IMG/VR virus record: IMGVR_UViG_3300003650_000049
Span: 1 to 22,104 of that record
Length of the DNA stretch: 22,104 nt
Reading direction: 5' to 3' (one strand)
From: a virus
Below the pieces are notes generated by a model. That model saw nothing but the letters and a program-made list of their open reading frames with translations, did no database searches and had not been told where the DNA came from. Below are positions 4,305-21,223 of this stretch, in pieces; the stretch's first letter is position 1, and each line of letters opens with the position of its first letter. The position numbers and the translations under genes were made by a program.

Positions 4305-6203
4305 CTATTTAGGATTATTTTGAGCACGATTTCTAGCGGTAAAATCAAAGCGATTCACCGCTTTAGCGTATCCAGCAGGGGTGGCCATTACCCATCCTTC
4401 ATGTCCGGGATCCTTCAAATCCAATTGCTTTAAGATATCAAGTTTTAAATCGTGTAATAAGATAAACAAAGTAAATGCCACAGCAAGGCCTTCTTGGTTG
4501 CTAGATGGACTATTTAGGTATTCGATAATATTAGTGAATTTGCGGGGGCTAACCTTGGTCTGCAACCAATCCCCAAACTCTGCTAACAAGTTGTCAAAGT
4601 GTCCGGACCCAATTCTGTAGTTTATGTAATCAATGCATAGTTTGGCCAAATCTGTGATTTGCATGGCACGAAGTTCAGCAGGATTAAACAGCGTGTCAAT
4701 GAGTGCACCTTTGCTACGCAATATGCCTTTGATTTGTTTAATCAATGCAGCATTTGGTTCCATTGATTTGCCTGCAATGGGTTCAATCAATAACAAACCG
4801 GGCACATCATTAAATGATACTCTGCTCAGTGGTTGTCGTGGCTCACCTTGATCAGCATACATTGAGTGCATAGCTATACCAATTTTGTTGTTGCCGATTC
4901 GTCGTCCAAGTGCAGACTTAGCTGGAATACGATATTGCACAGTATTTGGTTTAAACACATAATTGCCTTGTTCAAGTGGAGGTGTGTCCATATACAACAA
5001 GTCGCCCTTAACATAGCCGCGGAAGTTAGTAGGAGTTGCTGCTTCTAATATAGGAAATAGTGTGGCATACAATTGGATCAATTCATCTCGTGGCCCAGCA
5101 CGAGTACGCTGTATATCGCCCATCATTTGCGGGCTTGTCGCAAGTCCATCGTAGCCCTTAGCTTCAAATCCCGAACCATCAGTTAATACAAACTCACTAG
5201 TAGCAGGTTTACGCCCAAATATCAATGCTGGCTTGCCATCCCACTTAACTGTAGTGGTATTGGGTTGTTGCGTAGCAGCGTCAACAATAGCAAGTGCGTC
5301 TGCCACTCCACTGCTTCCTCTGCGAAATACAAGGTCTTCTAAGTGTTCAATACCTTTTGCTCTACCACCTACTCCAGCAACCTCGGCTTCATAAAGTTGA
5401 TATTGGTTTGTTTTCTCGTTGTCAATTAATGGCATCATGCCTTGATTAACGATGCGGTCCCGCAGGTTGGCCAGGAAGTTTACATCCGAATTTTCCTTGA
5501 CAAGGTCCGGCGGTTGCAATCCTTCTCTATTAAGATACTCTTGAAAATCTGCTAATTTAGCGTCGCGGTTTTTATCTTTTGCTAATGCAGCATAAATGCT
5601 TTCTACATTTTTAAGATTTGCTCGTGTAGCATTTTTGCCCAATAGAATTTGAGCCACATAGTCTGGATCTTCGCCACCTTGTACAAGTTGATTAGTAGTG
5701 CGACTAAACATACCATTTGCACCAACTCTAAGTCCTGCTTGTTTTGCAATACTTGACATCAATACATTGCGGTGCATTCCTCTGTAAGTTGAGTCTTCTG
5801 CACCGCCGTAGTAGAACTGTCCCCAGTCTAAGTTAGGAAAAAACATAAAGTCTGATTGCACATAGCCATTTTCCGGTCTACCACCTATTGGAGTGCGTAG
5901 ATGCACCTCGCCTTTTTTTACAACCCAGTTCTTGGGGTCTTCGCCGTGGCTTTTTGCCCATTGAACTAACTTTGCTGCTAGCTGTTCTTTGCTAATCTCG
6001 CTCGCATCAACTGCAAGATCCAGATCACCGCTTGTGGGTGTGCGGCCAGTGCTGCCCAACCAACGCTCGCGAGGGAATTCTAGTCCTGTTAATTGCTCTA
6101 TCCACAGCACGGTGGCAGCGACATCGCTTTGGTTAATGCGAATAGTCAGTGGTCGACCGTCGGCGTCTTTGAATACATTGCCGCCTTCTACTAATAATCT
6201 CAT
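4305..6203 (-). CDS. Two-domain protein: Pol-beta-type nucleotidyltransferase fused to a KxDG ligase-like domain
   Basis: A 632-residue protein. Residues about 48-120 carry a Pol-beta superfamily nucleotidyltransferase signature: GS at 50-51, Asp60 and Asp62 in SGDLDLAVD, and a third acidic strand QSDFMFF with Asp118. Residues about 285-615 resemble a phage-specific relative of the covalent nucleotidyltransferase (DNA/RNA ligase and capping) superfamily. That part has VKWDGKPA with Lys320 as candidate nucleotidylated lysine, GYVKGDLLYM (about 396-405), FKPNTVQYRIP, and EGWVMATPAGYAK (602-614) resembling ligase motifs IV and V. The spacing between motifs I and IV (about 280 residues) is much longer than in classical ligases. 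Substrate and pathway are unknown; repair or modification of nucleic acid ends is one possibility. The ATG overlaps the preceding stop as ATGA. It sits among structural-type genes, so a packaging or virion role is not excluded. Confidence 0.6.
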   Translation of the reverse strand: MRLLVEGGNVFKDADGRPLTIRINQSDVAATVLWIEQLTGLEFPRERWLGSTGRTPTSGDLDLAVDASEISKEQLAAKLVQWAKSHGEDPKNWVVKKGEVHLRTPIGGRPENGYVQSDFMFFPNLDWGQFYYGGAEDSTYRGMHRNVLMSSIAKQAGLRVGANGMFSRTTNQLVQGGEDPDYVAQILLGKNATRANLKNVESIYAALAKDKNRDAKLADFQEYLNREGLQPPDLVKENSDVNFLANLRDRIVNQGMMPLIDNEKTNQYQLYEAEVAGVGGRAKGIEHLEDLVFRRGSSGVADALAIVDAATQQPNTTTVKWDGKPALIFGRKPATSEFVLTDGSGFEAKGYDGLATSPQMMGDIQRTRAGPRDELIQLYATLFPILEAATPTNFRGYVKGDLLYMDTPPLEQGNYVFKPNTVQYRIPAKSALGRRIGNNKIGIAMHSMYADQGEPRQPLSRVSFNDVPGLLLIEPIAGKSMEPNAALIKQIKGILRSKGALIDTLFNPAELRAMQITDLAKLCIDYINYRIGSGHFDNLLAEFGDWLQTKVSPRKFTNIIEYLNSPSSNQEGLAVAFTLFILLHDLKLDILKQLDLKDPGHEGWVMATPAGYAKAVNRFDFTARNRAQNNPK

Positions 6204-7516
6204 ATTTTTCCCATGTGTTTTTGTAGATGTGCATCAAACTCAGCTAGCATGCTAGCTACAACCGGATCAGTTGGACTCATCCGTTGTTTTTTTCGTTGCA
6301 GGCGGCTTCTAGCTGCTGGTGATCTTAATGTGGTATTAGTCTTACCATAGCCACTCGGCCCTGCATAATTAGGTGTAGTTGCCGGTTGCTTCTTGGCATA
6401 TTTTTCCATGCCTGGTAATTTCATTACATTGTCAGCATCGAAGCCTGCTGGTTTACCTGTTGCAGATTGTGCCCTTGCCCTCTGTGCAGTCGATGGTGCG
6501 TTACGTTTTGCCGTTGGTATAACATCATCAAGGGCAGACGGTGGCCAGGACCTTGCTGGTGCTGCTGGTGCTGCTGGTGCAACTGTTCTCGCTTGCATTG
6601 CTCTCCGCCTAGCTAATATTTTAGCTGCTGCTACCTGGGCTGCTGTTGGACCAGTTGGCACAGTTGCTGGTACTGCTGGTACTGCTGGCACAGTTGCTGG
6701 CACAGTTGGTGGTACAGTTGGTGGTACAGTTGGCACAGTTGCTGGCACAGTTGCTGGCACAGTTGCTGGCACAGTTGGCACAGTTGGTGGCACAGTTGGC
6801 ACAGTTGGTGGTACAGTTGGTGGTACAGTTGGTGGCACAGTTGGTGGTACAGTTGGTGGTACAGTTGGTGTCCTTGCTGCCCTGCGAGCCGCCCACTTCC
6901 GTCTTGCCTCTGCGTTCCGCCAGGCTTGACTATTTATAGGAGGATAGAACTGCATTAAACTCATGGCCTGATATGCATGTCTAACTAACTCTTCCCATTC
7001 TGGCACGCCTTCTCTTACTTTGACACCCATTACATTTGTTATATCTTGTTTGATTAAATTTACTAGCTTGTTAGCTTGTGTTCGTATATCTGGTGCAGCA
7101 TCTACTAGTGAAGGCAACTCGTCGATATTTTTCTTAAGTTTGCCTCGCATGATTGTATTACGAACTGCTTTATCCAATAATCTACTTAACTCAATGTCGC
7201 GCTGCGGGTGTCCGGCTAGAGCTTGTAACGCTTCGTCCCATTTTTCTGCTTCTTGTTTGGCTAGCTGTCTGATCAGTGGTTCGTTCATTTTTGCAGCTTG
7301 CTCTGCACTAGTACCACGCATTGAAGGAGTTGTTAATCCTAAATGACTAGGAAGTCCAGCTTTAGCTAATATTTGACCACCGAGATTTTTGGCTACTGCA
7401 CCGGCAGTACGGTAGATATTGCCTGGCATCCGGGCAGCTCCCCTTGCAAAAGTTTTTATACCGCTAACTACGCTTTCATTTGTGGGTTGTCGACGATGTA
7501 TTTCATAAATCTTCAT
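6200..7516 (-). CDS. Basic, Pro-rich phage protein with a long Thr-Val-Pro repeat
   Basis: A 438-residue protein starting MKIYEIHRRQ. Residues 1-60 are basic and Gly/Ala-rich. Residues 75-200 are helical (LIRQLAKQEAEKWDEALQAL and neighbours). Residues about 216-290 are an almost uninterrupted array of T-V-P-P, T-V-P-A and T-V-P units. The rest is Ala/Arg/Pro-rich and basic, with NYAGPSGYGKTNT near 388-400. No enzymatic domain is recognised. The layout of a helical head, extended Pro-rich spacer and basic tail suits a virion or DNA-associated structural protein, which is inference. The ATG has a good Shine-Dalgarno site (AGGAG, 5 bases upstream) and overlaps the preceding gene by 14 bases. Its stop overlaps the next start as ATGA. 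Confidence 0.6.
   Translation of the reverse strand: MKIYEIHRRQPTNESVVSGIKTFARGAARMPGNIYRTAGAVAKNLGGQILAKAGLPSHLGLTTPSMRGTSAEQAAKMNEPLIRQLAKQEAEKWDEALQALAGHPQRDIELSRLLDKAVRNTIMRGKLKKNIDELPSLVDAAPDIRTQANKLVNLIKQDITNVMGVKVREGVPEWEELVRHAYQAMSLMQFYPPINSQAWRNAEARRKWAARRAARTPTVPPTVPPTVPPTVPPTVPPTVPTVPPTVPTVPATVPATVPATVPTVPPTVPPTVPATVPAVPAVPATVPTGPTAAQVAAAKILARRRAMQARTVAPAAPAAPARSWPPSALDDVIPTAKRNAPSTAQRARAQSATGKPAGFDADNVMKLPGMEKYAKKQPATTPNYAGPSGYGKTNTTLRSPAARSRLQRKKQRMSPTDPVVASMLAEFDAHLQKHMGKI
6647..6871 (-). repeat. 12/9-base tandem repeat coding for Thr-Val-Pro units
   Basis: About 225 bases built from 12-base units (T-V-P-P or T-V-P-A) mixed with 9-base units (T-V-P). All units are multiples of three, so copy number can change without breaking the frame. 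Near-identical codon use between units points to recent expansion. Confidence 0.9.
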
Positions 7517-10249: not shown

Positions 10250-11322
10250 CGGTATTGGAGGTTAAGAATGTAACCATTGTTGATGAATACTATTGCATTA
10301 TTACCACTTTGATATTGAATTGGGAAATAGCCAGCACCGCCTGAGATCACTACAATTGGCCCAATTTGTCCGTTGTCCACTGATAAACACTCTGCAGTTG
10401 CTCCTGCACCATTACCGAATATTCGGACATTAGGAGGAGCAACATAACCGGTGCCCTGATTGGTAACTTGAATACTTTCAACAGCACCATCAACACTAAC
10501 TGTGGCCGATGCTGTTGCACCCCAGCCAAGGCTATTGTCAATTGCCATTCTCAGCAATGGGTAATACCCTTCAATGTTCCAGTAATGTATGCCTGACTTG
10601 TTACGATAAGTTTCATTTTCAGTTACATCGGCCCAAACAGATTCATAGTCGTTTGCTGCTTGAAATTTAATTGTCCCTGTAAAATGATCTAAATCAAATT
10701 TTACAGTTGTTTGCCGCTGTCCGTTTGTGGGAATATGGCTTGAGTAAAACTCAGTTGACTGTCTAGTATTAACAGGTTTTGGTTGTGATGCCCAGTCTGG
10801 CCATTGTGCTGGTCCTGGATTTATTGGTTGTTTTGTGCCGTAAATGGTAGGAATAGTAAGCTCGTAACTGGGAATAAATTGCGGTAAAACTGAATCTACT
10901 ATATCACAATATGCTCTAGCACCGGAGTTTGCATCAACAAATGCTGCTTGCACATAGTCGCCTTGTGTGCGTTGGATGCTGTAACTAGCCGGTTGTGCTG
11001 TGATGTTAATTATATCCATATTATTGAGCACTACTTTGACTCGCCCGGTTGCGGCGCTCAGTATGGTCATGTGCTTGTCAATTAGCACTTGATTTCCGGC
11101 TTGATTAATCACGCGGAAAGTAAAACTAGAGCCGGTGATGTTTACAGGCTTTTCTTCCTGGTTTATGAATTCGAATAATAGGACATTGTCCACCCCTTTG
11201 TTTATTGTAAGTTGTTTTGCGTACATTGGATTATACCTATAAGTGAAGTGCTCGCCGTCACCTGTATTGACTAGTAAAACTTTTGTTGTTTGCTGAAAAA
11301 GATAGGCTGTGGTAGAATACAT
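10246..11322 (-). CDS. Tail/fibre or baseplate-type structural protein
   Basis: A 358-residue, beta-rich protein without enzymatic motifs. Residues about 38-115 (VLLFEFINQEEKPVNITGSS, then a second strand set ending in RVKVVLNNMDI) resemble the immunoglobulin-like N-terminal domain of BppU-type baseplate upper proteins. Residues about 280-335 contain G-T-G-Y-x-x-P-P-x-V and G-G-A-G-Y, a repeat style common in phage tail fibres and adhesins. A role in the tail or in receptor contact is therefore likely. A CTAAATA box lies 7 bases before the ATG and no Shine-Dalgarno site is present. Its stop overlaps the -35 region of the primase promoter. Confidence 0.55.
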   Translation of the reverse strand: MYSTTAYLFQQTTKVLLVNTGDGEHFTYRYNPMYAKQLTINKGVDNVLLFEFINQEEKPVNITGSSFTFRVINQAGNQVLIDKHMTILSAATGRVKVVLNNMDIINITAQPASYSIQRTQGDYVQAAFVDANSGARAYCDIVDSVLPQFIPSYELTIPTIYGTKQPINPGPAQWPDWASQPKPVNTRQSTEFYSSHIPTNGQRQTTVKFDLDHFTGTIKFQAANDYESVWADVTENETYRNKSGIHYWNIEGYYPLLRMAIDNSLGWGATASATVSVDGAVESIQVTNQGTGYVAPPNVRIFGNGAGATAECLSVDNGQIGPIVVISGGAGYFPIQYQSGNNAIVFINNGYILNLQYR

Positions 11323-14101: not shown

Positions 14102-14602
14102 CTACCAACTTTTCTCGTAGTCTACAATCTCACAGTTCCGTGAAATGTCCTTGACAAAATATATACAGTCAGGGTCCAGACCATCAGTAATCGGCACAGC
14201 AAGTAATTGCCCGTTTTTAAGCTTTGGAGCATACCAACTTACCTCGTGATACACATCAAGTATTTCAATGTCTAAGAAGCTCGGGCGGAAACTAGTTAAC
14301 GGATTAAACTGAAATACTTTAAACCCTCGATCATTAATGGAAGTCAATGGCAATACTTCCAAATCTCCTACATCAGGTTCACCGATCAACACTTGCCAAT
14401 CCATGGGCATACGAATCGTATTCTTGCCTATTCGTAGCACAAGAGCCGGAGCGTTAAAACTCTCTAAAAAGATAAGTGGTATAAAGTGATAGTCTGGATC
14501 ATTTGGGTTAGAGTTATCTAATATGGAAAATCGCATATCGTCGATCTCTTCTGGTAGATGGTCGAGATCATATGAGGCGTTTTCGAGCGTGAGGATTTTC
14601 AT
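14102..14602 (-). CDS. Conserved phage protein, function unknown
   Basis: A 166-residue protein starting MKILTLENASYDLDHLPEEI. The frame is open further upstream (to 14728), but the ATG at 14602 is chosen. It overlaps the preceding stop as ATGA, it lies exactly 6 bases after a consensus -10 box, and the upstream part is the out-of-frame methyltransferase end. The protein is acidic and beta-rich: IPLIFLESFNAPALVLRIG, TIRMPMDWQVLIGEPDVGDL, then FKVFQFNPLTSFRPSFLDIE. There is a conserved-looking N-A-S-Y-D-L-D-H-L-P near the N-terminus. I do not recognise the fold or function. It heads the coupled cluster that contains the probable gp62. Confidence 0.6.
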   Translation of the reverse strand: MKILTLENASYDLDHLPEEIDDMRFSILDNSNPNDPDYHFIPLIFLESFNAPALVLRIGKNTIRMPMDWQVLIGEPDVGDLEVLPLTSINDRGFKVFQFNPLTSFRPSFLDIEILDVYHEVSWYAPKLKNGQLLAVPITDGLDPDCIYFVKDISRNCEIVDYEKSW

Positions 14603-15201
14603 TCTGTTATTATACAATATTTTTTCTTGCGTGTCAACACCACGCCACAATCTAATGTCCGATGCATTATTTCCCAATTGTTGGCTAACAAAAATATCAC
14701 AGCTGGTCCACACTTGCCAATCCAGCAATCATTGTGGCAATATGTATCGTCAAACGCCACAACTGCTTTGGCAGTTAAATTAGGATATAACAACATTAAC
14801 TGTTTTAGGTGTTCAATTTGACACTGTTGATTAGACATTGTTACGCCACGCCCGGCATACTCAGCTTTTTGCTGGTTAATGTTAGCCTGGAATAAGTTCA
14901 CATCCCATATATAGTCAAAATTATCCAGATACAACACATCAATATCTGTATGTGTCATTGCAAAATTACCTGCCCACTCAATGCCGTTGGACACAACGAA
15001 TTCTGTATTAGGACATTCCGATTTTAATCTGTCACGAGCATCAGTTAAAACGTCTACCGTTATTAACGTTGTGCTGTGTGAGGCCGCTAGTTTATCTAAG
15101 CATGCGGTGCTGCCCTCCCACCGATCCGATCCAATCTCAACAAACTTACCAGTAGTTTTTTCCGGCAAATAATCGCTAATGTGCTGATATATTTTTCCCA
15201 T
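14599..15201 (-). CDS. Class I SAM-dependent methyltransferase-like protein
   Basis: A 200-residue protein with a Rossmann-type methyltransferase layout. The first strand and glycine-containing loop are FVEIGSDRWEGSTACL (about residues 20-35; motif I, S-adenosylmethionine binding), followed by a second strand ending in TLITVDVLTD (acidic residue for ribose binding). The later strand DVLYLDNFDYIW is where family members of the methyltransferase-24/cephalosporin-hydroxylase type carry an L-D-G/N segment, and AVVAFDDTY is a further acidic strand. The substrate is unknown; sugar or small-molecule methylation is usual for this group. It starts 4 bases after the UvsW stop and ends with a 4-base overlap, so it is transcribed with uvsW. 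Confidence 0.6.
   Translation of the reverse strand: MGKIYQHISDYLPEKTTGKFVEIGSDRWEGSTACLDKLAASHSTTLITVDVLTDARDRLKSECPNTEFVVSNGIEWAGNFAMTHTDIDVLYLDNFDYIWDVNLFQANINQQKAEYAGRGVTMSNQQCQIEHLKQLMLLYPNLTAKAVVAFDDTYCHNDCWIGKCGPAVIFLLANNWEIMHRTLDCGVVLTRKKKYCIITE
14609..14637 (-). promoter_or_regulatory. Consensus sigma-70 promoter, leaderless type, before the 14602 gene
   Basis: A perfect TTGACA (14632-14637), a 17-base spacer and a perfect TATAAT (14609-14614), lying within the last codons of the methyltransferase gene. The ATG at 14602 follows after 6 bases. Confidence 0.85.
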
Positions 15202-16737: not shown

Positions 16738-17748
16738 TTATTTTAATAAAGACGTTTCAGCATACCGTTTCCATTTATCCGGAAACGATTTACGCAGGTC
16801 GGCCGCCTTAAGAACCGTGCGCAAAGAAATCTCCCGCAACCGATTCTGATTTACCTCGATAAACTCGATTAACTCGTCTACTGTGGCACGGTCGAACTCG
16901 TAGTCGTCAAGCATACCATCATATGATAGTTGCTTAATACGCAACATCTTGTCTCGCGTAGAGTCAATGGTTAAGTCAACAAAGTGGCAGCGTGATTGCA
17001 GTGCATCCAGGTGATCCTTGAGCTTGCCCCTAACATTTGAGAACTTAATGTTTGAAATAAAGATTACACTGCCTTTGAAGTCAAAACTATCTGGTATGCC
17101 TTCGCGGCGCAGAGCACTGGATTCGGCTAACCAGGAAATCTTGCGCTTTTTGCCGGAATCCAGGGCACCTTTTAGCAAGTTCAACGACTGGTCGTCGAGC
17201 AAGATGCTGTCGCAGTCATCAAACACAAGAACACAGTTTGGATCACTAAACTTATACAGAGTTTGATACAAGCCAATTGGAGTAGCAGCACCTTTTACAA
17301 CTTCTGCGCGGAGTCGCTTGCCTGCAAGCTTGTCAAATAAACATGCTTTGTCGATTTCTGTCTCAACACCAAAGCTCTTGCCAACACCCGGAGGTCCTGA
17401 CACAATCATTGCACGGATATCGCCGCTAATGGCTGCTTTGGTCATTTCACTTAGAATATCAAACCGCTCGCGAATCCGATCCATGGCTTGTTCATCTGTT
17501 TCGGCTACGACTTTGGGTGTTTCAACAGTAGCAGTGGAGTCTTGCGTCATTCCGTTAGTATACGCGATGTCAGCAGGATTGTCAACTGCAATACGGATGT
17601 TGTTGGGGCATCCAGGAAATGCGCCGTTGTTTTTAACAGTTACATAACCGCCTTTTGCGCCGGTTTGAAATCCTGCTACCAATACAAAAGTTTGATTGGA
17701 TACTTGCTTGTTGCGATACTTACCGCTGATAATACAGATTGCACTCAT
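16738..17748 (-). CDS. AAA+ ATPase, phage type
   Basis: A 336-residue protein. The N-terminal 75 residues (MSAICIISGKYRNKQVSNQT onward) are a small beta-rich region, followed by an Asp/Glu/Thr-rich linker. The AAA+ core has Walker A GPPGVGKS (118-125), Walker B VLVFDDCD (173-180), a sensor-1 segment FISN (230-233) and an arginine-finger-like SR (252-253). The C-terminal helical part ends in RKSFPDKWKRYAETS. The ATP-driven function is unknown. It is not an evident gp44 clamp loader, because the zinc region and the usual S-R-C spacing of gp44 are not clear, although SRC does occur at 252-254. It has its own consensus promoter (17798-17826), an AGGAG Shine-Dalgarno site 7 bases before the ATG, and a terminator, so it is a single-gene unit. 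Confidence 0.75.
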   Translation of the reverse strand: MSAICIISGKYRNKQVSNQTFVLVAGFQTGAKGGYVTVKNNGAFPGCPNNIRIAVDNPADIAYTNGMTQDSTATVETPKVVAETDEQAMDRIRERFDILSEMTKAAISGDIRAMIVSGPPGVGKSFGVETEIDKACLFDKLAGKRLRAEVVKGAATPIGLYQTLYKFSDPNCVLVFDDCDSILLDDQSLNLLKGALDSGKKRKISWLAESSALRREGIPDSFDFKGSVIFISNIKFSNVRGKLKDHLDALQSRCHFVDLTIDSTRDKMLRIKQLSYDGMLDDYEFDRATVDELIEFIEVNQNRLREISLRTVLKAADLRKSFPDKWKRYAETSLLK

Positions 17749-17786
17749 TAGTTGGCTCCTTTGAAATGCGGGTTAATGTTTGTTTG

Positions 17787-17840
17787 TTTAAGTATTAATT
17801 ATAGCAAATTGTGATTTACTTGTCAAGCAAATAAGTGTTG
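17787..17840. repeat. Promoter-containing direct repeat, copy 1
   Basis: Shares ACAACACTTATTTG before the -35 and TATAATTAATACTTAAAC around and after the -10 (minus strand) with the copy at 18084-18139; the 17-base spacers differ. This copy partly codes for the end of the 17823-18068 gene. Confidence 0.8.
17798..17826 (-). promoter_or_regulatory. Consensus sigma-70 promoter of the AAA+ ATPase
   Basis: A perfect TTGACA (17821-17826), a 17-base spacer and a perfect TATAAT (17798-17803). The -35 overlaps the stop codon of the upstream small gene. It lies in one copy of a repeated promoter block. Confidence 0.9.
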
Positions 17841-18068
17841 TATTTGTGCAACATTGTGCATCTCAACATCCCGCTCGACAGTACCGCTATGCATCTCGTA
17901 GTTGCCGTGGCATGCAGTGTGATAAAATTCTTGGTCCACGCGGATATCAACGTAGCCAGTGTCGTTGCCGCGATGATCGCTAACGTGGCATATGAGTTTA
18001 CCAGTGCAAACCTTACCGTTAAACTCTTTCCAGCTTACGGAGGAATCATTGGGAATTTGTGTATGCAT
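17823..18068 (-). CDS. Small orphan phage protein, His/Cys-containing
   Basis: An 81-residue protein starting MHTQIPNDSSVSWKEFNGKV. It is probably all-beta in the middle (KLICHVSDHRGNDTGYVDIRV) and ends with VERDVEMHNVAQIQHLFA. It has seven histidines and three cysteines, which could bind a metal, but no defined motif is present and I do not recognise it. It is a single-gene unit with its own sigma-70 promoter and an AAGGA Shine-Dalgarno site 6 bases before the ATG. It lies between two copies of a promoter-bearing repeat, so recombination between them would delete it cleanly, as expected of an exchangeable early gene. Confidence 0.6.
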   Translation of the reverse strand: MHTQIPNDSSVSWKEFNGKVCTGKLICHVSDHRGNDTGYVDIRVDQEFYHTACHGNYEMHSGTVERDVEMHNVAQIQHLFA

Positions 18069-18083
18069 TTCAAGTCCTTTTGC

Positions 18084-18139
18084 TGTTTAAGTATTAATTA
18101 TACTGCATTTCGGATAAACCGTCAATCAAATAAGTGTTG
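18084..18139. repeat. Promoter-containing direct repeat, copy 2
   Basis: Second copy of the block at 17787-17840. It has the same 14 bases before the -35 and the same 17-18 bases from the -10 onwards, with a different spacer. This copy is non-coding. Confidence 0.8.
18097..18125 (-). promoter_or_regulatory. Sigma-70 promoter of the 18068 gene
   Basis: -35 TTGACG (18120-18125), a 17-base spacer and a perfect -10 TATAAT (18097-18102), giving a leader of about 25 bases with an AAGGA ribosome-binding site. Confidence 0.85.
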
Positions 18140-18153
18140 TTTTTTAGCAACTA

Positions 18154-18579
18154 CTAAAGTATTACATCACGGGCGTTATGCAACTGCTCTGCAGGCACAT
18201 TGTGATCTGCATATCCTTCTTTAATCATTTCAAAGTAACTGTCACTTGGCAGATTGCTACTGTGTCCAGGTTGCATAAAGTAAGTCACAGCCATTACCAC
18301 ACGGTTTTGATATAGTACTTTTTTATTACAACGGTTGTAGTAGTTCGGGAACCCTTCTAACATGTCCAGGGTTTCGAGACATTGCGGGGTTATTGTCCAC
18401 AGTACGCCGTCGACATAACTATCTTCGCACTTAGTAACATCAGCATGGGTAGCAAACCGAAATACGTGGTCTAGCAATATTGCACGGCCCTTGACAACAG
18501 AATCAGGACAACACTCAGCCATTTGAACACGGTTAGTATTCATGCCATACCCAAAATATAAGATTGCGTTTTCATCCAT
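18154..18579 (-). CDS. Gamma-glutamylcyclotransferase / AIG2-like protein
   Basis: A 141-residue protein of the GGCT-like (AIG2) fold. The N-terminal ILYFGYGMNTNR (residues 6-17) is the Y-G-x-N/S substrate loop. VDGVLWTITPQCLETLD leads to LEGFPNYYNR, in which Glu75 matches the family's catalytic glutamate and F-P-x-Y-Y the usual following motif. Members cyclise gamma-glutamyl groups of dipeptides or glutathione derivatives to 5-oxoproline. In phages the substrate is unknown. The ATG directly follows a promoter (-10 box 6 bases away), so the message should be leaderless. It ends 28 bases before the next -35 box. Confidence 0.75.
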   Translation of the reverse strand: MDENAILYFGYGMNTNRVQMAECCPDSVVKGRAILLDHVFRFATHADVTKCEDSYVDGVLWTITPQCLETLDMLEGFPNYYNRCNKKVLYQNRVVMAVTYFMQPGHSSNLPSDSYFEMIKEGYADHNVPAEQLHNARDVIL

Positions 18580-18585
18580 ATGTTT

Positions 18586-18614
18586 ATTATAACAGATATT
18601 GAAATAACGGTCAA
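18586..18614 (-). promoter_or_regulatory. Sigma-70 promoter, leaderless type, before the cyclotransferase-like gene
   Basis: -35 TTGACC (18609-18614), a 17-base spacer and a perfect -10 TATAAT (18586-18591). The ATG at 18579 follows after 6 bases. Confidence 0.8.
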
Positions 18615-18638: not shown

Positions 18639-19394
18639 TTACGATTTACGTTCAATGTCTTCTTCGTTACATCTTGCGCCGTATTGTATTTCCACCACTC
18701 TACAAGGTGTATCGTACGGATTAATAAGTTGGTGCCATTCGTTGACAGGAATACTAATCTCATCGTGTTGTGATAGTTCTTTAGCCGGCAATAGATAACC
18801 ATTGGGCATCATGCTGTTAACACAACACCGACCCTCTTCTACAATCCAATATTCACTGCGCTGTTTGTGCCGTTGCATACTCAATGCTTGCTCCGGATTA
18901 ACAGTAAGTTCCTTAACCTTCATGCCCGGCACTTCATGCAGCACACGATAGTATCCCCATATTCGTTCTGTCTTGGGCGCTTTCCATTCAGTTAAAATCC
19001 AGCTGCTGGAGTTCTTTTTATCATGTCCCCCGACGCCAAACGCAAACTCCACGTCGTCAAATACTATTTCTGGAATGTTGTCTATAGAGCGGTCGCCACC
19101 GTTCGCAAATACAATAGAATCGTGTGGATATTGAGCACGGACTATTCGAATTGCATTACATGCTGAATCATCGCTGTCATCAAATGCAATTACCTGGTCA
19201 ACAGATCTTAGGTTTTCTAGGATACATTTACGTTCTGCAAATGGCAGAAATGCCCGACCCTTCTTACGAACAAGCCAGGCATCTGAATTAAGTGCAATAA
19301 TTAGATTATCACCTAATTGCCGTGCAGCGTTTATGTAGCTGATATGTCCAGAATGGCAAGGATCGAATCCTCCGGAAATGATTACTGTTTTCAT
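18639..19394 (-). CDS. Cytidylyltransferase-like nucleotidyltransferase fused to a cupin domain
   Basis: A 251-residue two-domain protein. Residues 1-140 form a HIGH-superfamily nucleotidyltransferase: IISGGFDPCHSGHISYI with H14-S-G-H17, then NSDAWLVRKKGRAFLPFAERKCIL, as in RfaE/HldE C-terminal and glycerol-3-phosphate cytidylyltransferases. These activate a sugar or polyol phosphate with a nucleotide. Residues about 145-245 form a cupin resembling the phosphomannose-isomerase domain of ManC: LSMQRHKQRSEYWIVEEGRC (171-190) with metal-ligand-like His, then SIPVNEWHQLINP. A combined role in making a nucleotide-activated sugar for glycan or virion decoration is plausible. The usual H-W of the cupin motif is Y-W here. 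No Shine-Dalgarno site is clear; it follows the UvsY gene by 18 bases. Confidence 0.75.
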   Translation of the reverse strand: MKTVIISGGFDPCHSGHISYINAARQLGDNLIIALNSDAWLVRKKGRAFLPFAERKCILENLRSVDQVIAFDDSDDSACNAIRIVRAQYPHDSIVFANGGDRSIDNIPEIVFDDVEFAFGVGGHDKKNSSSWILTEWKAPKTERIWGYYRVLHEVPGMKVKELTVNPEQALSMQRHKQRSEYWIVEEGRCCVNSMMPNGYLLPAKELSQHDEISIPVNEWHQLINPYDTPCRVVEIQYGARCNEEDIERKS

Positions 19395-19901: not shown

Positions 19902-20171
19902 TTAATTTTCCCACTCTTCGTCTTCGTTGTAATCTGAGTCGACATCCTCTGTCTCCTCTTCATCATCATCAATGTGATCGTCTTTACCAAGATATAAAGC
20001 TAACGCACTTTTAATGTCACTATCACCCTTAAAGGCAGCACGAATATCTTCCACATTCGAATCGTTATCCATTAAAATTTGAATTACGGTTACTGCTGCC
20101 TCGGAACGATCCACGGTGTTTACATATCGTTTAAGTTCGCCCCATATTTCTGCTGCTATTGTTTCGTTCAT
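19902..20171 (-). CDS. Small acidic phage protein between uvsX and uvsY
   Basis: An 89-residue protein. Residues 1-65 are helical (MNETIAAEIWGELKRYVNTV, then AVTVIQILMDND, then VEDIRAAF and SALALYLGKDD). The last 25 residues are almost all Asp and Glu (DDDEEETEDVDSDYNEDEEW). Such acidic tails often bind basic partners or mimic DNA, as with the gp32 C-terminus. An interaction with UvsX or UvsY is possible but not shown. It is coupled to uvsX by an ATGA overlap. I recognise similar short acidic proteins beside uvsX in other T4-like phages, without a known function. Confidence 0.6.
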   Translation of the reverse strand: MNETIAAEIWGELKRYVNTVDRSEAAVTVIQILMDNDSNVEDIRAAFKGDSDIKSALALYLGKDDHIDDDEEETEDVDSDYNEDEEWEN

Positions 20172-21223
20172 TCTGCATCCTCCTCTACAATACTAGCTAC
20201 CGGCTTATGATTTTCAAAATCTCCCATAACTGTGTCAAGACAACCGTCATCGTTCTTTTCCCAGGCCTTGCGGAACTTCTTAATAATCTCACCTTCGCTG
20301 GTGGTAAACACCAAGCTATTACCTTCACGTTTAAGTAGACCTTTTTTCTCAATTAAGTCAGTTAATCCAGAATAAAGACTCATACCAGTCAAATATGGAA
20401 TCTTAACTTGCATCCCCTCAAACGGTTTTGCATAGCGTGTTTTCATTACTTTACAACCAGCACGGATGCCCGTTACATCGGTTATCTTATTACCATCTTC
20501 ATCTTCTTTAAGCTTCATCTTTTTCATTGCAACAACAATAGAAGATGCATAAATGAAACCTTGCCCACCGGAGATTTTGTCATCGGGATCAAACATATCT
20601 TGACTTGCGTATGTGTGATTAGTACAGACTAACCCTACATTGTAACTGCCAAACATATTAACCGTATTACGAACAAGTGATGTTAGTGCTTTTGGTTTTC
20701 GACCCATGTCGCCCTTCATCTCGCCCGCATTAAATTGATTAACATCGGTTGGGGTTAACAACATACCCAACGAGTCGATTACCCACAGAACTTTCATGCG
20801 ATCTTCTACGGGAAGCTCCTTGTAGTCTGCCATAAATGTAGAAATAGCTTTAGCAACATCGTCGATCATGCTCATGTTAAGTTTAAGTAACTTTTCGGGG
20901 CTGGTGTCTACCCCTAGTGCATGCAGCCATGATTCATCTAGTGCATTCTCTGTATCAATTAGAATAACATAGATACCTTGTTCTTGTGCATTTTTTACAA
21001 TGTTACCAGCACAAATAAAACTTTTACCGGCACCGGATTCACCTGCAAATACAGTGACTTTACCTAACGGAATGCCATTGGTAAATGACCCACTGATAAG
21101 ATAGTTTAAAGCATAGTTACCAGTTGATATCCAATCTGTTGGGTCGTGAAATCCAATGCTCAAGCCCTGTATACTCTTTGTTATGTCTTTTCTAAATTTG
21201 CTTATATCAAATGGTTTTGCCAT
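20168..21223 (-). CDS. uvsX: RecA-like recombinase UvsX
   Basis: A 351-residue RecA/Rad51-type strand-exchange protein that forms filaments on single-stranded DNA and drives recombination-dependent replication and repair. Walker A is GESGAGKS (61-68). The second acidic motif LIDTENALDESW and the Walker B region VLWVIDSLGMLL follow, then GEMKGDMGRKPKAL and CTNHTYASQDMFDPDDKISGG (loop L2 region). The C-terminus is acidic (EEDAE), as usual. No strong promoter or Shine-Dalgarno site is visible before the ATG at 21223. The terminator after gp32 lies 41 bases upstream, so expression needs read-through or a phage-specific promoter in the short A-rich gap. Confidence 0.9.
   Translation of the reverse strand: MAKPFDISKFRKDITKSIQGLSIGFHDPTDWISTGNYALNYLISGSFTNGIPLGKVTVFAGESGAGKSFICAGNIVKNAQEQGIYVILIDTENALDESWLHALGVDTSPEKLLKLNMSMIDDVAKAISTFMADYKELPVEDRMKVLWVIDSLGMLLTPTDVNQFNAGEMKGDMGRKPKALTSLVRNTVNMFGSYNVGLVCTNHTYASQDMFDPDDKISGGQGFIYASSIVVAMKKMKLKEDEDGNKITDVTGIRAGCKVMKTRYAKPFEGMQVKIPYLTGMSLYSGLTDLIEKKGLLKREGNSLVFTTSEGEIIKKFRKAWEKNDDGCLDTVMGDFENHKPVASIVEEDAE

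Follow-up and report, generated by a model that had tools for sequence, protein, structure and literature searches.

PeSLs (promoter-early stem-loops) are composite promoter-terminator motifs, and excised circles that result from recombination between their copies have been reported. The cassettes that carry them in T4-type phages were reportedly described by Arbiol et al. in 2010 and by Comeau et al. in 2014 (Genome Biol Evol). In one study, gene shuffling between related T4-like phages is attributed to these cassettes (PMC4503421). A second related system comes from archaeal viruses, in which a conserved regulatory sequence precedes early anti-defence genes (PMC11065993). As at the locus described here, numerous small early genes that are unrelated to each other share one strong promoter sequence, by which they can be traced; the viruses and promoters are archaeal, however, and the abstract of that work makes no point of recombination between copies.

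The locus studied here lies in a virus record of 22,104 bases, hereafter the window, i.e. the whole stretch of DNA that was analysed. It has several features in common with the PeSL cassettes: a T4-type phage genome, strong sigma-70-like promoters repeated between the small genes of a variable region, and gain, loss and exchange of genes with breakpoints at the motif. Unlike PeSLs, the window copies are devoid of a terminator stem-loop, which only ~9 % of related promoters have; in some promoters a dyad at a preferred upstream distance replaces the terminator, and the genome is of the jumbo type. Since the terminator that defines PeSLs is absent from the window copies and accompanies 8.6 % of the promoters in relatives, the system was not classed as a PeSL member. 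The arrangement works like the known PeSL cassettes, but with copies that have no terminator. We consider it highly probable that two units of a row of promoter-bounded cassettes are present in the window, that the row belongs to the variable region of a T4-related phage of large size, and that its units are exchanged by promoter-promoter recombination.

Two promoter blocks and an 81-residue gene

The window encodes genes of T4 type, i.e. a UvsX-like recombinase (PHROG 97; 20168-21223), a primase, a helicase and others, which place it among T4-type genomes. Its UvsX shares approximately 64-65 % identity with the UvsX proteins of GAP32, CBB, XaC1 and Atu_ph07, its AAA protein is approximately 43 % identical to that of PA5oct, and its nearest isolates are large phages. 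Judged by its sequence, the window is part of a large T4-related phage of the jumbo type.

Two copies of a 68-nt block, each consisting of a dyad, a predicted sigma-70 promoter and the start of a leader, were found on the minus strand. Copy 2 (18084..18151; TTGACG-N17-TATAAT) is the putative promoter of an 81-aa gene, and copy 1 (17785..17852; TTGACA-N17-TATAAT) that of the AAA-ATPase gene, with scores of 11/12 and 12/12, respectively, against TTGACA-N17-TATAAT. The copies are 76 % identical (~52/68) at a spacing of 299 nt, as compared with 40/68 for the best pair of 68-mers at most 1 kb apart when the window was shuffled 30 times (first-order). The first-pass annotation had placed the repeat at 17787-17840 and 18084-18139, about 297 bases apart; the repeat itself is real, but both copies extend further and their spacing is slightly larger. 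It had also located the copies on both sides of the 81-aa gene, which applies to copy 2, preceding the gene, but not to copy 1, which overlaps the last ~10 codons at its 3' end; the TGA stop of the gene (17823-17825) falls within the -35 hexamer of this copy. Its observation that the spacers have diverged between identical outer and -10 parts was borne out: both copies share the core TTGAC(A/G)-N17-TATAATTAATACTTAAAC, with exact matches to ACAACACTTATTTG at 17828-17841 and 18127-18140, and to TATAATTAATACTTAAAC (18 nt, from the -10 box onward) at 17786-17803 and 18085-18102. There is no further copy of TATAATTAATACTTAAAC in the window, which is a genome fragment and to which this in-genome copy count refers. 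At up to three mismatches, 0.05 matches to TATAATTAATACTTAAAC would be expected by chance, and none of 100 shuffles contained two.

The 81-aa gene (17823..18068, minus strand), the cargo of the cassette, has a ribosome site (AAAGGA), and its frame looks coding, with a codon score of 0.12, where the genes of the window reach 0.19 +/- 0.08 and pieces read off frame -0.48. It is an orphan: relatives of its protein were found neither in Pfam, PHROGs, PADLOC, phages, IMG/VR, the fetched loci or the cassette proteins, nor among solved structures (best E 0.81), and the structure prediction for it is of low reliability (mean pLDDT 41). A role in host takeover, which the first-pass annotation assigned to such small genes, is conjectural. 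Downstream of the cassettes, the conserved AAA-ATPase gene (16738..17748, minus strand; PHROG 1250) forms a fixed anchor, and the preceding cassette is a gamma-glutamyl cyclotransferase-like gene (18154..18579, minus strand). The predicted promoter of the latter (18586..18614, minus strand; TTGACC-N17-TATAAT) has a different leader and is not a block copy. Another perfect 12/12 sigma-70 promoter lies at 14609-14637 on the minus strand, towards the 3' end of frame 14599-15201, and is devoid of the block flanks.

Recurrence of the block and turnover of the bounded genes

The first-pass annotation had proposed a search for further copies and a comparison of the genes between them, and both supported its reading of the block as a cassette system in which a gene is swapped and the promoter kept. 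At up to two mismatches, TATAATTAATACTTAAAC occurred in 9 of 18 related contigs, with up to seven copies in one 59-kb contig, and its reversed control pattern in none of the 18. The extended block TTGAC-N18-TATAATTAAYACTTAAACA matched 109 stretches in IMG/VR, where the exact extended pattern of the window block including its upstream part had no match. Using the shorter pattern TTGAC-N18-TATAATTAA, matches were obtained in all 12 long contigs, nearly all of them on a single strand per contig, and none with the reversed control. A 340-kb relative harboured 35 TTGAC-N18-TATAAT sites, exclusively on one strand and in many cases clustered a few hundred bases apart. Two further relatives of 320-330 kb (G028 and G029; L249 and L250) possess 35-38 such promoters with a leader of their own, TATAATACTTGTATAGTAATTAAAAAGGAG, and yet another gene after the cyclotransferase-like gene. 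Homogenisation of the blocks within one genome by frequent recombination was also considered and not seen, the leader likeness within contigs (0.477) being too close to that between contigs (0.461).

The gene at the AAA locus is not fixed across relatives. Among those picked by the AAA gene alone (L003-L082), the gene preceding it differs and the promoter is almost always kept; TTGAC-N18-TATAAT was present at most 120 nt upstream of the AAA gene in 75 of 84 distinct upstream regions, and approximately 22 distinct, unrelated promoter-bounded cassettes precede the AAA gene across relatives. The interval that separates the AAA gene from the cyclotransferase-like gene is occupied by the 81-aa gene in the window and by other genes in L015, L027 and L124. 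In L061 and L072, paired blocks approximately 280-290 bp apart enclose another small gene, and L047 has shared cassettes in a different order. The searches brought up no relative of the exact 81-aa gene, and thus no instance in which this very unit had been gained or lost.

All fetched loci together contained 679 distinct promoters and 371 bracketed genes, i.e. genes with a promoter on either side and less than 900 bp from one promoter to the other, belonging to 104 families. A unit was present or absent between the same neighbours in 31 cases across contigs, 11 sets of cassette replacements and 22 pairs occurring in both orders were found, and rows comprised up to 11 units; because related and near-duplicate contigs as well as the loci picked by the promoter pattern (L104-L183) were included, these counts measure diversity rather than independent events. 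In 51 of the 371 cassettes the stop of the preceding gene lies in the TTGAC of the next promoter, and in 46 at the TAA of TTGACCAATAA.

Position of the breakpoints

When junctions with the same preceding but a different following gene were compared, identity was 0.48-0.66 on the left and remained high through the -35 box into the first spacer half (0.73, background 0.35); it dropped to 0.55 in the second (background 0.39) and equalled the background after the -10 box. The pattern was reversed for the same following and a different preceding gene. In these alignments, similarity switches within the promoter. Individual loci give further examples: L183 has a 211-bp promoter-gene unit without counterpart in L202, both neighbours align, and the joint lies in the promoter. 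Considering that units are gained, lost and reordered with joints inside the promoter, the promoters act as points at which small genes are exchanged.

An event of this kind was also found in isolated phages. In GAP32 (JN882285, 11183-11603, L253), the annotated promoters at 11183 and 11575 both sit in perfect 50-bp repeats and flank GAP32_018, while CBB (KU574722, 8945, L254) possesses both neighbour genes and one promoter copy, with GAP32_018 precisely missing. The difference amounts to a 392-bp unit between nearly identical flanks, and matches what recombination between the two promoters would be predicted to produce; gain and loss both fit. GAP32 and CBB thereby bring the mechanism within test in isolated phages. 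Their repeated TTGACA-N17-TATAAT promoters and the bracketed small gene are common to the window, whereas the promoter flanks (GTTAGAGTACTTTATAAT) differ and the copies are fewer (10-14 per genome).

Each unit consists of a strong sigma-70-type promoter, a standard leader, a ribosome site and one small gene, the end of which abuts or overlaps the next promoter. Sharing a common sequence and the same orientation, successive promoters would allow homologous recombination between copies, either of one genome or of co-infecting phages. Whole units would be deleted, added or swapped in this way, and one working promoter would stay before the next gene, here the AAA-ATPase gene. The promoters are probably active early with the host RNA polymerase, the exchange may be performed by the phage's own recombination, UvsX being encoded in the window, and selection on the small genes may favour it. 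This suggests how large phages could trade single small genes with their expression intact, and would make the block a simple marker with which hundreds of short unknown phage genes, probably strongly expressed and often exchanged, could be listed.

The main alternative is that the blocks are merely convergent or conserved early promoters, and that the genes turn over by other means, such as illegitimate recombination, without guidance by promoter similarity. Unrelated junctions are indeed also alike in the leader and -10 flanks (background 0.55 and 0.49 just past the -10 box), the similarity within contigs barely exceeds that between contigs, and in the replacement that distinguishes L179 from L143 one joint lies in the promoter and the other, on the left, inside a gene. 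However, the concentration of breakpoints in the promoter, including that of L183 and L202, argues against turnover independent of the promoters, as does the single unit by which GAP32 and CBB differ, since its position between perfect repeats, of which one is left, is the signature of repeat recombination. We therefore regard this alternative as improbable.

The upstream dyad and other features

The sequence ACAACACTTATTTG includes the right half of a TGTTG-N8-CAACA dyad. In copy 1, a gap of 9 nt separates the dyad TGTTGCACAAATACAACA (17836..17853, minus strand) from the -35 box downstream of it, and copy 2 has a shortened form, GTTGCTAAAAAACAAC (18136..18151, minus strand), upstream of its -35 box. 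Dyads were present in the 60 nt preceding the promoter in 59 of 677 cases as compared with 71 of 13,580 random windows. The distance to the -35 box in 45 distinct dyad-promoter pairs was exactly 9 nt in 17 and 19-20 nt, i.e. one helical turn further, in five; since the dyad pattern is found on both strands, an opposite-side control of this spacing is void. The dyad TGTTGYAAAAATACAACA recurs before promoters in L205, L142, L149, L162, L168 and L196, mostly 9 nt and sometimes 19-20 nt from the -35 box.

A role of the repeat as a terminator-promoter composite, i.e. a classical PeSL in which the outer conserved part terminates the preceding gene, has some backing in the relatives, where intrinsic terminators were detected at most 80 nt upstream of 58 of 674 promoters (8.6 %; e.g. 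in L072) and in 48 of 3395 random windows (1.4 %). None was detected at either window copy, however, and shuffled sequences fold as well as the RNA of the dyad regions (z 0.70 and -0.44), which makes this explanation very improbable for the window. The missing U-tract downstream of the dyad, the folding at the level of shuffles, a sixth pair that is often C-A and the position of the copy 1 dyad within the 81-aa coding sequence together render a protein-binding site on the DNA more likely than a terminator. The outer conserved part, which forms one half of a dyad that recurs before promoters with a preferred spacing, is plausible as an operator or activator site, as far as can be judged from the sequence. 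It is tempting to speculate that the block is a dedicated exchange site, the upstream dyad TGTTGYAAAAATACAACA of which binds a phage or host regulator and brings captured small genes under common control. If true, which we consider possible but rather doubtful, the blocks would be a plug-in regulon for fast-changing genes.

A single promoter that was recently duplicated in tandem, without functional consequence, would agree with the presence of just two copies in the 22-kb window, but the probability of this explanation is negligible, given that the same blocks precede unrelated genes in many contigs, that the consensus parts are kept despite the divergence of the spacers, and that the extended-block matches in IMG/VR contradict it.

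Two other features of the window were recorded. The region 18639-19394 on the minus strand encodes a protein that joins a cytidylyltransferase-like domain with a mannose-6-phosphate isomerase/cupin domain, and an array of 9- and 12-nt repeats occupies positions 6653-6877 within the reading frame 6200-7516.
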